The translations under genes were made by a program, and so were the position numbers. A stretch of DNA of 43,479 nt from Treponema sp. (lineage in GTDB: Bacteria; Spirochaetota; Spirochaetia; Treponematales; Breznakiellaceae), in the NCBI GenBank assembly GCA_009778545.1, contig WRJO01000004.1, positions 1-43,479 on the forward strand, read 5' to 3'. A model generated the notes under the pieces. The model saw nothing but the letters and a program-made list of their open reading frames with translations. It was not told where the DNA came from and did not search any database. This document shows, in pieces, positions 9,051 to 39,099 of the stretch (positions are counted from its first letter, which is position 1; the number at the start of each line of letters is the position of its first letter).

Positions 9051-9377
9051 ATGCGAGATATTAAAGAAAAACTAAATGTGATAAAAGAAGTAATTCTCAA
9101 GAGTGTTCAAGCTAAACAAATTTATTTATTTGGATCCTATGCCTATGGAACTCCGACTGAAAACAGCGATATAGACATTTATGCTGTTATTCCCGATAAT
9201 TTTAACAAGGGAATAATTGACACGATGGGTGAAGTAATAAATCAACTTTACAATAATAATATATTAAATGTCGATTTGTTTTTAATAAAAGAAAGCAAAT
9301 TTTTATTTTACAAAAAAAACAGTTCTTTCGAAGAAACAATTTGTAATAAAGGGATGTTATTATATGAAACCGTATGA
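9051..9377 (+). CDS. MNT-type nucleotidyltransferase
   Basis: IYLFGSYAYGTPTENSDIDIYAVI: GSx10DxD minimal nucleotidyltransferase motif; 14-nt overlap with next ORF. Confidence 0.9.
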   Translation: MRDIKEKLNVIKEVILKSVQAKQIYLFGSYAYGTPTENSDIDIYAVIPDNFNKGIIDTMGEVINQLYNNNILNVDLFLIKESKFLFYKKNSSFEETICNKGMLLYETV

Positions 9378-9819
9378 TATTGCTGAATGGTTCTGGATTG
9401 CGGAAGAAGATATAGAATCGGCAATGCTTCTTAATACGTCGATAAAATCCCAAAAAACAAATGTATATTATCATTGTTCGCAGGCTATTGAAAAATACTT
9501 AAAAGGTTATTTAGCTTATAACGATATTATATATAACAAAGATCATAATCTGTCTCTTACAATAAAAAAGTGTGTTGATTGTGATATTAGTTTTTCTGAT
9601 ATATTGCAGGATTGTAATAAAATGACAGCTGCAATAAAAAACTTGCGTTACCCTGGCAGAATTATTCCGACAGATAAAGATTTGAGTTTTGCATTTGCTT
9701 TAATAGATAGAGTAAAAAAAATTGAACCCATACAAAAATTGTTTAATATACTAATTAATGAATATGGGGAAAATTGGCAAGAAGATTTATTTCATAAATC
9801 CAATGATGATACTGATTGA
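9364..9819 (+). CDS. HEPN-domain protein
   Basis: AEWFWIAEEDIESAMLL...YYHCSQAIEKYLKGYLAYNDI...KDHNLSLTIKKC: HEPN helix pattern; paired with MNT. Confidence 0.85.
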   Translation: MKPYDIAEWFWIAEEDIESAMLLNTSIKSQKTNVYYHCSQAIEKYLKGYLAYNDIIYNKDHNLSLTIKKCVDCDISFSDILQDCNKMTAAIKNLRYPGRIIPTDKDLSFAFALIDRVKKIEPIQKLFNILINEYGENWQEDLFHKSNDDTD

Positions 9820-10005
9820 ATGCATTCTGTGAGGGCAATCTCCTGCACCAATGGCTTGCAGACAGAAGGCTTGGCAGAAGGCCGTGTAGAGGGCCAAACC
9901 GAAACTAACCTGGAAATCGCACGGAAAGCTCTGGCAGAAGGGGCTTCTATTGAGTTTGTCCAGAAAATTACCGGGCTTTCTTCGGAAACCATCGAAGCCC
10001 TGTAA
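9820..10005 (+). pseudogene. Second rpn-family remnant (C-terminal tail)
   Basis: ATCTCCTGCACCAATGGCT (19 nt identical to 8817-8835) is followed out of frame by EGLAEGRVEGQTETNLEIARKALAEGASIEFVQKITGLSSETIEAL, matching the tail of the intact copy (EGLAEANLEIARKM...ITGLSTETIETL). Confidence 0.75.
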
Positions 10006-10010
10006 TCCCC

Positions 10011-10276
10011 CTAAACTTGACCCGCGTTTCCTCCGCATTACTCCGGTGGGGGGCGGCGCGTGTGCGTCAAAAACCTGCGGGCGACCGCCTACGGAGCCGC
10101 CTGACCACTTGATGCTTCTTGTTAGGAGTAACTATCCATAATCAGATTATCAAGTGGTCAGGCATTTTCTGTACCCTATTAGCAAATTTCCTCCCTCGTC
10201 TCCTCCGGCGAGGAGGCCCAGAAGTTTTTGCCGCCCCCCACCGGGGCTATTCTTACACAAGGCAGGGCAAGTTTAG
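10011..10276. repeat. Structured dispersed element, copy A (candidate ncRNA or palindromic mobile repeat)
   Basis: Nested: TIR CTAAACTTGACCC/GGGCAAGTTTAG; perfect 15-bp CCGGTGGGGGGCGGC/GCCGCCCCCCACCGG; hairpin CTCCTC-CGGC-GAGGAG; perfect 15-bp GCCTGACCACTTGAT/ATCAAGTGGTCAGGC; loop TAGG(A)GTA complementary to downstream TACCCTA. Homologous to copy B near 38.7 kb. Confidence 0.8.
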
Positions 10277-10388: not shown

Positions 10389-10442
10389 AAAAAATCCTCG
10401 CAAACATTAAAGCAAAACGCAACATTGCGCCATATAAAGGGT

Positions 10443-11246
10443 ATGGAAACTTTAGACACAGGCAGGCCTCCTGCCCGGCAGGATCCCCTCAGCGACTACT
10501 TTTTCATTAAAGTAGTCGGCGAGAAAGGCGACGAAGGCCAGTTGTTGGGCTTTCTCAATGCGGCGCTGAAGCGGACCGGCGATGAACGGCTCGTTGCAGT
10601 TGAAATCCTTGAAAACAAGACGTTCTCGGCGGAATACATCGGCGGCAAGGCCAGCATTCTCGACCTGCGGGCGCAGCTCGAGGACGGCAGCAGAATCGGA
10701 ATCGAGGTGCAGCTCTCCAATTTAAAAAACATGGACAGGCGCAGCCTCTACTACTGGAGCAAGGAATATGCTGCCGGGATAAAAGAAGGCGAGGACTATA
10801 TCAGCCTGGTCAAGGCCATCGCCATTAACATAGTCGACTTCGACTTTCTGGAAACTGATAAAGTCCACACGATCTTTCATGTATGGGAGGACGGCGATCC
10901 AAGGCTCATGCTTACGGACGTACTGGAAATTCATTTTTTGAATATGGTAAAATGGAGGAAGCTGGAAGGGAAAGACATTGAAGGCGATCCCCTGCACCGG
11001 TGGCTGGCGTATTTTGACCGGAACAGCCCGCCGGAATTGATAGAGGAGGTAAAGAAGATGGGAACAAAAAATAGCGCCCAACGGGCGTTGACTGATCATA
11101 TGTTGAATGTTCCAGCGCAGAAAAATTTTACCGTCCACGGTAACAGTAAGTCGCCTTTAGGCGACTGTGCGCGCTGCGGAGCGATACTGATGGCAGACGA
11201 GCGGATGGTGTACGTTACCGGCAATGCCGAAGCAATCCCGCCTTGA
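10443..11246 (+). pseudogene. Rpn family recombination-promoting nuclease (PD-(D/E)XK), with internal insertion and C-terminal truncation
   Basis: METLDTGRPPARQDPLSDYFFIKVVGEKGDEGQLLGFLNAALKRTGDERL...ILDLRAQLEDGSRIGIEVQLSNLKNMDRRSLYYWSKEY; close paralogue of 11439-12326; lacks about 70 C-terminal residues. Confidence 0.8.
11061..11177 (+). repeat. Palindrome-rich in-frame insertion (117 nt, 39 codons) within the rpn ORF
   Basis: Paralogues read EEVKKM-N-GAIQMADERM / EEVKKM-NEGIQMADERM; this copy reads EEVKKM-[GTKNSAQRALTDHMLNVPAQKNFTVHGNSKSPLGDCARC]-GAILMADERM. Insert contains TTACCG-TCCA-CGGTAA and AGTCGCC-TTTA-GGCGACT perfect hairpins. Confidence 0.8.
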
Positions 11247-11337
11247 AATAACGTGGTTGTTACGGTATTTGCTCTTCGCATGGTGTGTACCGATGCATTT
11301 GATTGTCGCACATGGTCACCCCTTCCCCAAATTTGTG

Positions 11338-11362
11338 CCTCCGTGCCTTTGTGTGATGTATT
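11338..11362. repeat. Solitary arm of the 'GTGCCTCCGTGCCTTTGTGTG' repeat family
   Basis: TGCCTCCGTGCCTTTGTGTGATG resembles the right arm at 6502-6546. Confidence 0.6.
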
Positions 11363-11438
11363 CTCAAAAAAATCATTTTTCCGCAAATTTCCCTCGCAAA
11401 CATTAAAGCAAATCGTAACTTCTCGCCATATAAAGGGT

Positions 11439-12326
11439 ATGAATACAATACAGAAGCATGAGCCGCCTGCGCGGCTCGACCCCCTCAATGATGTCCTTTT
11501 CATTAAGGTATTCGGCGAGAAAGGCGATGAAGGCCAACTTTTGGGCTTTCTCAATGCGGCACTGGACAGGACCGGCGATGACCGGCTTGTTTCAGTTGAA
11601 ATCCTCGAAGACAAAACATTCACGGCGAAATTCCTGGGTGACAAGACCAGCATCCTCGACCTGCGGGCACAACTCCAGGACGGCACTAAAGTTATTATTG
11701 AGGTCCAGCTCACCAACCTGAAAAACATGGACAGGCGCAGCCTCTTCTACTGGAGCAAGGAATATACTTCTGGAATAAAAAAAGGCCAGGACTATATTGA
11801 TTTGCCAAAAATCATCGCCATTAACATTATCGACTATAACTTTTTGGCGACTGAAAAAGTCCACACGGTCTTCCATATACGGGATGATAGCGAGCATGAA
11901 CTTATGCTGACGGATGTACTGGAAATTCACTTTATCAATATGGTAAAATGGAGGAAGCTGAAAGAGAAAGACATAAAGGGCGATCCTCTGCACCAGTGGC
12001 TGTCATATTTGGACAGGACCAGCCCGCCTGATCTGGTTGAGGAGGTTAAGAAAATGAATGAAGGGATACAGATGGCAGACGAACGGATGGTATACGTTAC
12101 CGGCGACGAAGAAGCCATCCGCGCTTACGAGATGCGGCAGATGGCGATTTACGATATGAACACACGGTTCCGCGAAAGTTTTGAGGAAGGCATATCACAA
12201 GGAAAAGCCGAAGGTCTTGCTGAAGCTAACCTGGAAATCGCACGGAAGATGAAGTCGTTGGGCGATTCTGCTGAAAGAATTCATACCATAACCGGCCTTT
12301 CAACCGAGACCATCGAAACACTGTAA
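11439..12326 (+). CDS. Rpn family recombination-promoting nuclease/putative transposase (PD-(D/E)XK), apparently intact
   Basis: MNTIQKHEPPARLDPLNDVLFIKVFGEKGDEGQLLGFLNAAL...SILDLRAQLQDGTKVIIEVQLTNLKNMDRRSLFYWSKEY...; ATG 11439 preferred to track start 11253 because the upstream 50 nt is a non-coding repeat shared with the neighbouring copy. Confidence 0.88.
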   Translation: MNTIQKHEPPARLDPLNDVLFIKVFGEKGDEGQLLGFLNAALDRTGDDRLVSVEILEDKTFTAKFLGDKTSILDLRAQLQDGTKVIIEVQLTNLKNMDRRSLFYWSKEYTSGIKKGQDYIDLPKIIAINIIDYNFLATEKVHTVFHIRDDSEHELMLTDVLEIHFINMVKWRKLKEKDIKGDPLHQWLSYLDRTSPPDLVEEVKKMNEGIQMADERMVYVTGDEEAIRAYEMRQMAIYDMNTRFRESFEEGISQGKAEGLAEANLEIARKMKSLGDSAERIHTITGLSTETIETL

Positions 12327-38482: not shown

Positions 38483-38626
38483 ACTACACCCCCCATGTGT
38501 CCTCATGGCGACACTACCCCCATTGTATAACCTAAGCATTAATATAGCACAATAGTTTAGAAATATCTACAATATCGGCACATACCGCCTAACACTTGCA
38601 GGCAAAACCACCCCCCCCTGGCGGGC

Positions 38627-38866
38627 TAAACTTGCCCCACAATGTATTTGCTCAAACCCCGGCGGGGCGGGGGGGGGCGGGCGGGCTGGCAAAAATCTGG
38701 AAGAGTCCGACTACGGAGCCACCTGACCACTAATACATGATGCTTAGGGTAACTATCCATAAATCATCTTTAATTAGTGGTCAGGCATTTACTGTACCCT
38801 AGTTTTGAAATTTACCCGCTCGTCTCCTTCGTCGGGGAGCTCCAGAAATTTTTTGCCAGCCCGCCG
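38627..38866. repeat. Structured dispersed element, copy B
   Basis: CTAAACTTGCCCC left end; GGCGGGCTGGC/GCCAGCCCGCC (38680-38690/38855-38865) followed by AAAAATCTGG/CCAGAAATTTTTT; CTCC/GGAG hairpin; CCTGACCACTAAT/ATTAGTGGTCAGG (38722-38734/38773-38785); loop TAGGGTA (38745-38751) complementary to TACCCTA (38795-38801). Confidence 0.8.
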
Positions 38867-38917
38867 CCTTTGCAATACATGCCGGTCAGTTATTTACCGT
38901 GCCTCAAGTAAATAAAA

Positions 38918-38969
38918 TTTACTCGCTCATCTCCTCCAGCGGTGAGACCCATAAATTTTCGCCGCCCCC
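38918..38969. repeat. Extra copy of the 3' module of the structured element
   Basis: TTTACTCGCTCATCTCCTCCAGCGGTGAGACCCATAAATTTTCGCCGCCCCC parallels copy B 38811-38865 and copy A 10191-10238. Confidence 0.7.
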
Positions 38970-39099
38970 GCTGCGCCCCCCTCGCTGCCCTCACTCCCTC
39001 ACTCCTCACTCCCCATTCCACATTCCACATTCCCCTCCCCTCTTCCCCTTTTCTTTTTTCGCCGATAATATGTCATACATAAAACTTAAAAAGGTGAGT

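Follow-up and report, generated by a model that had tools for sequence, protein, structure and literature searches.

The window, i.e. the whole stretch of 43,479 nucleotides analysed here from contig WRJO01000004.1 of a Treponema sp., carries at 10011-10276 an intergenic block of 266 bp that is self-complementary from one terminal inverted repeat (TIR) to the other, hereafter copy A. Directly upstream (9829-10005), the C-terminal remnant of an Rpn/PD-(D/E)XK-like gene was recognized by eye; it is preceded at 9051-9819 by adjoining nucleotidyltransferase (MNT-like) and HEPN genes, likely a toxin-antitoxin pair, and two intact PDDEXK_2 genes follow copy A (10425-12326). Two giant ORFs on the minus strand (4271 and 4403 aa; 12499-38539) take up most of the window, and past them lie copy B and a truncated third copy (Table 1).

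The initial annotation of this DNA had reported a self-complementary block enclosed by an outer TIR, with two perfect 15-bp stems and a second copy about 28 kb away. These observations hold: both 15-bp inverted repeats are perfect, the ends read CTAAACTTGACCC and, as reverse complement, CTAAACTTGCCCT, and copy B lies where the second copy had been seen. The RNA fold of the block reaches -125.8 kcal/mol, against -83.2 +/- 4.8 for shuffled sequences (z -8.8; 0 of 200 shuffles as good). Allowing at most one mismatch, the CTAAACTTGACCC repeat has 62 matches in this genome vs 6 for a reversed-pattern control.

Table 1. Features of the fold-back elements in the window
Feature	Position	Strand	Remarks
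Copy A: outer shell, GC-rich arm and core	10011..10276	+	85% identity to its closest relative among the copies in the genome
Left outer terminal repeat, CTAAACTTGACCC	10011..10023	+	repeat matches in the genome; bounds Y1-protein elements in two congeners
Right outer terminal repeat, minus strand reads CTAAACTTGCCCT	10264..10276	-	
Perfect GC-rich arm	left half 10043..10057, right half 10230-10244	+ (left half)	15-bp inverted repeat
Conserved core "K"	10064..10234	+	matches the covariance model over its full length (positions 1-173; 152.9 bits)
Remnant of the right end of nested element X, TGCGGGCGA	10076..10084	+	X query 125-149 matches 10074-10098
CCGCCTACGGAGCC, pairing long-range with CTCCTCCGGCGAGG at about 10200-10214	10085..10098	+	helices 4 and 5, 93.5% and 98.5% of cells paired
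Variant-1 arm: 15-bp hairpin 10099-10113/10149-10163, loop with TAGGAGTAACTATCCATAA	10099..10163	+	helix 6, 96.5% paired
Copy B	38626..38880 (right border approximate)	+	core 38686-38859, 179.2 bits; outer repeat intact on the left, degenerate on the right
Third copy, truncated to the core's 3' arm	38915..38975 (about)	+	74% identity to query 146-228

Distribution and anatomy of the family

Homologues beyond the two copies first noticed are numerous. BLAST of copy A against its own genome gave 65 matches, and a covariance model of the core, built from 15 copies, found 45 core matches there, i.e. about 45 copies. With the same model, core matches were obtained in 30 of 40 congeneric genomes, full length among the matches listed, and one relative has as many as 68. 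For many copies identity is no more than 65-80%, and most copies are therefore not recent. When 199 genomes of the order were searched under stricter filters, at which weak matches are lost, only this bacterial family matched (14 genomes, in 4 of 77 genera), so that, within this sampling, the fold-back elements do not extend beyond a single bacterial family. Scanning GTDB contigs for a 20-base motif of the core returned seven matches in unrelated taxa, approximately what is expected from chance or from GC-rich sequence. The initial annotation had recognized no known family, and Rfam indeed gave no match to the element at either gathering or relaxed thresholds.

From the outside inward, the elements are composed of an outer repeat (in this genome CTAAACTTG[A/C]CCC), a GC-rich arm and a core of about 170 nt, the latter reading GGCAAAAATCTGGGGGAGTCCGCCTGCGGAGCC, a side hairpin, TTTCTGTACCCTAGTTTTAAATTT, CGTCTCCTCCGGCGGGGAG and CCCAGAAATTTTTTGCC in this order. 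Stem arms included, most side hairpins measure either 55-61 or 73-77 nt, which defines two main classes. Short ORFs were seen by eye on either strand of the variant arms; since their frames differ between copies, we make no coding claim. The CTCCTC-CGGC-GAGGAG hairpin proposed initially is present in its letters, and the same bases have a long-range alternative in which CCGCC-TGC-GGAG pairs with CTCC-TCC-GGCGG (GGAG:CTCC plus CCGCC:GGCGG). This alternative is backed by a compensated copy (L014), in which GGAG:CTCC is swapped for ATAG:CTAT.

The modules of the element combine in several ways. At least two shells without relation to each other, CTAAACTTGACCC and GGGCAACAGCATTTA, can enclose the same core, and both do so in relative G018; among congeners, the GGGCAACAGCATTTA shell occurs in G009 and G018, and a CTCAACTTGACCC-like shell also in G018. 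Conversely, shell-only copies of about 70 bp are present on contigs C68 and C79. At a pair of paralogous loci, the flanks are nearly identical but the entire interior is present on C24 and absent from C79, with the junction at the palindrome CCCCGGCGGGG; deletion between short repeats and insertion both fit this arrangement. Several copies harbor another element, X (about 125 bp), always nested at one and the same point of the core; X also stands alone, and in one copy it encloses a second X-like unit. Of X, copy A retains 9 bases, at a place where copies devoid of X read GGGGGAGT.

Element X itself has two hairpins (L066-L083, e.g. L079, G000:C96:2827-2947, and L081, G000:C59:13361-13481). 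Two of its stand-alone copies have an open reading frame, MPK[R/K]EHSVKLC..STARAPKK..LLPKMRACF.K.SGR, reminiscent of palindromic elements carried in frame, such as the Rickettsia palindromic elements (RPE), palindromic repeats that are scattered through the genome and some of which have coding potential. Compared by description only, RPE are a possible parallel for X, with a different sequence and structure. Elsewhere in the genome, fold-back elements in opposite orientation form pairs with a common spacer of about 66 bp, GTGGCAGATATTATTGAATAAGCACAAAATTGCCTGGAATAACTGATAAATACCAC, at several places (L003, L004, L021 and L024 of G000); as this spacer is common to several pairs, it seems that certain pairs are spread or duplicated as composite units.

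Covariation, gene context and target sites

Across 123 copies, 93.7% of the cells of the core alignment are paired, against at most 50% when slid. Double-sided changes occur in 32 of 35 pairs (941 cells), and the covariation score is 0.576 vs 0.183 for shuffled data (0 of 500 shuffles as good). Pairing is maintained as the sequence changes, far above both the shuffle and the slide controls, in line with the initial observation that stems differ between copies and still pair. The arms outside the core behave alike in this genome: a left arm matches its own right arm at 18.9, vs 9.6 for the right arms and 9.1 for the left arms of other copies. Arms hence match far better within a copy than between copies, which indicates that arm sequence is free and that only self-complementarity is kept.

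This compensation is almost purely Watson-Crick. Leaving out the loosely paired column 31 and helix 7, G-U accounts for 34 of 3757 core cells (0.9%) and A-C for 76 (2.0%). Small re-folded subsets of the core give 1.7-4.6% G-U and 1.9-2.9% A-C, with 3.7-4.0% G-U when read on the opposite strand, vs 14.7% G-U and 2.3% A-C in the RNase P RNA of 16 congeners treated in the same way as these subsets. Such a pattern is expected of DNA hairpins, or of template-switch correction, and not of RNA stems drifting through G-U. On the opposite strand, G-T exceeds A-C 2.2-fold in the core (76 to 34) and 3.5-fold in the outer arms (106 to 30), an asymmetry that may reflect either a mutational strand bias or a weak tolerance at the RNA level and, weak as it is, would allow for a minor RNA role. 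In several congeners, the gene for RNase P RNA is itself about 500-585 nt long rather than about 410-430 (L274, L277, L282-L286 and others), which suggests insertions in the gene.

Perfect hairpins can arise and persist through template switching (PMC8794818), and part of the compensation could come from neutral template-switch correction of quasipalindromes rather than from selection (PMC8794818). A loop-inversion test for template switching returned matches that are the palindromic stems themselves.

The pseudoknot predicted initially between TAGGAGTA and TACCCTA fared less well. Both motifs lie where they had been placed, and 81 of 105 cells pair, vs 62% in a slid control; one of the seven positions almost never pairs and there are no double-sided changes. 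A TACCCTA-like sequence also persists in variant-2 copies, which have a different loop.

Regarding gene context, the strands of the flanking genes relative to the core appear random in the 99 copies that lie between two genes (34 --, 25 ++, 22 divergent and 18 convergent; neighbor ORFs called mechanically). No neighbor recurs: 100 neighbors match 120 Pfam families, none of which is found in more than three members. A cis-regulatory role was considered and rejected, given the lack of bias in gene orientation or neighbors and of any sign of a regulon or terminator position.

Target duplications were sought in 19 copies, without any common length or offset. The C-TA-AAC..GTT-TA-G ends had evoked a TA or CTAG duplication, and this candidate was discarded as the ends vary as complements (CTGAAC..GTTCAG, CCAAAC..GTTTGG, CCGAAC..GTTCGG) and not as direct copies; the end bases are hence part of the stem. 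Perfect 5-bp direct repeats occur near the ends of 5 of the 19 copies, vs 1.0 with shuffled flanks, and were likewise rejected because of inconsistent offsets and partly low-complexity flanks. Taken together, the near absence of G-U and the lack of orientation bias, recurrent neighbor and target duplication point to DNA hairpins, and suggest that pairing is preserved in the DNA itself, as that of a mobile hairpin, and not because the block encodes a new functional RNA. From the initial proposal of a structured RNA or mobile element, the mobile-element-like character hence stands, and the structured RNA is disfavored by the scarcity of G-U, the unbiased gene context and a pseudoknot devoid of covariation.

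Candidate mobilizers and competing explanations

The only gene found within the outer repeats of the element is RAYT-like. In two congeners, the CTAAACTTGACCC repeat bounds elements of about 690 bp that contain an ORF, namely in G028, where the gene is found in about 40 copies, full or partial, and in G029, which has a single such element; the G028 loci of this multicopy protein (L115-L118, L232, L259) and the G029 locus (L233) have intact reading frames. The enclosed protein, of about 160 aa, matches Pfam Y1_Tnp just below the cut-off (E 1.6e-4) and NCBIfam REP_Tyr_transpos also below it (E 1.3e-6). When aligned with the RAYTs of other congeners, it keeps the flanking motifs and has lost the HUH motif (NHIHLLI to DRLSFYI), which is replaced by RLS or related residues; the assignment of its catalytic tyrosine is uncertain. 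Given the loss of these residues, the protein may be inactive.

No Y1 gene turned up in this genome, whose completeness is 68%, nor in the core-rich G001 and G018. Reciprocally, none of the 16 loci tested, i.e. 12 sampled Y1 loci and four G028 elements, has a core near the Y1 gene, and G028 has the outer repeat but no core. As a Y1 gene often goes undetected in core-rich genomes and the Y1 loci tested lack the core, we infer the link between the Y1 protein and the core from their shared outer repeat. HUH-intact RAYT genes of other congeners were considered as partners and set aside: they are flanked by other repeats, such as GGTGTCAATCACC, and not by CTAAACTTGACCC. At L245 (G035), L244 (G002) and L236 (G012), the inverted repeats on the flanks of these genes are GGTGTCAATCACC or TGTTTCACGTGAAACA, and repeats of this type are probably the true REPs of the genus.

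The nearest precedent is provided by the TIRtrons of Di Nocera and colleagues, RAYT-like genes flanked by TIRs that accompany dispersed repeat families made of those TIRs (PMC3733652). In both cases, inverted repeats flank a RAYT-like gene and gene-less copies are dispersed (here, 62 repeat ends); those of TIRtrons are often inverted dimers, some of them self-complementary. The elements described here differ by a conserved, branched core of about 170 nt between the repeats, by repeats that vary between relatives and by an enclosed protein without HUH. REPINs and BIMEs, which are associated with RAYT, are likewise non-autonomous and intergenic, with two inverted halves forming one long hairpin, compensatory stem changes and a probable single-stranded DNA (ssDNA) intermediate (PMC3116915, PMC8266576); REPINs, in which compensatory hairpin changes are documented (PMC3116915), are about 90 bp long with GTAG-tagged REPs, whereas the present elements measure 260-320 bp, have nested side arms and inserted modules, and lack the GTAG tetranucleotide at the hairpin foot, their shell ends reading CTAAAC..GTTTAG. 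The element is probably related to TIRtron/REPIN repeats and moved as ssDNA.

The reading we favor, which we hold to be somewhat more probable than its negation, is that copy A is a nested, non-autonomous fold-back DNA element spread as an ssDNA hairpin by a trans-acting Y1 (RAYT/TIRYT-like) transposase. Each element is a long imperfect DNA palindrome made of the terminal repeat, the GC-rich arm and the branched core, the latter with a side hairpin of fixed length in either of its two classes. We infer that one strand, exposed for example as lagging-strand template, would fold into a hairpin to be cut and rejoined in trans by the HUH-type transposase, for which the core would be the recognized structure; elements inserting into or beside one another's hairpins would yield the nested arrangement.

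Two rather different explanations appear unlikely in comparison with the data. The first, in which a mobile repeat happens to carry a functional structured RNA (cis-acting or small), possibly read from the opposite strand, accords with the very strong covariation, the conserved unpaired stretches, the two fixed length classes of the side arms in most copies and the G-T excess on the opposite strand, but is opposed by a G-U content far below that of RNase P on either strand, by the empty Rfam searches, by the random gene orientation and diverse neighbors, and by the unsupported pseudoknot. An ordinary MITE, i.e. an internally deleted DDE insertion sequence moved via its terminal repeats, whose passive palindromic interior would have been made symmetric by template switching, seems just as improbable. 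The elements do share their size, TIRs, intergenic location and copy number with bacterial MITEs (ERIC, NEMIS, RUP and similar), and the persistence of perfect hairpins by template switching would suit this origin; yet no consistent target duplication was seen, the ends vary by lineage while the core is kept across the genus, the reverse of a MITE, and the enclosed gene is RAYT-like. The initial annotation had opposed selection on structure to a plain MITE, which turns out to be no real alternative, the element being a MITE-like fold-back in which DNA pairing is maintained.

A variant of the favored reading, not exclusive of it, is that the core is an independent mobile element targeting palindrome tips, the shells being mere targets. 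The occurrence of one core in unrelated shells within a single genome, the shells without core, and the nesting of X in the core and of an X-like unit in X all argue for it, but the relative orientation of core and shell is constant in this genome, so that both may move as one, no core was seen with a gene inside, and the shell-only copies could be deletions between short CCCCGGCGGGG repeats; we consider it a possible but doubtful scenario. Bolder still, and less likely, the core might represent a new class of mobile ssDNA structure, branched, with a conserved shape and a fixed arm length and selected at the DNA level, that would target hairpins, pass between unrelated shells and rely on its own recombinase.

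This apparently undescribed large family of nested fold-back elements thus joins the small set of non-autonomous repeats of the ssDNA type. It also brings a warning for RNA discovery, as covariation alone, however strong, is no proof of RNA; here, the near absence of G-U relative to a same-genus RNase P control separates pairing at the DNA level from pairing at the RNA level. Should the mobilizer be the RAYT-like protein without HUH, the family would pose a mechanistic puzzle. On present evidence, what is new is a nested variant of non-autonomous fold-back DNA repeats, not a new RNA.
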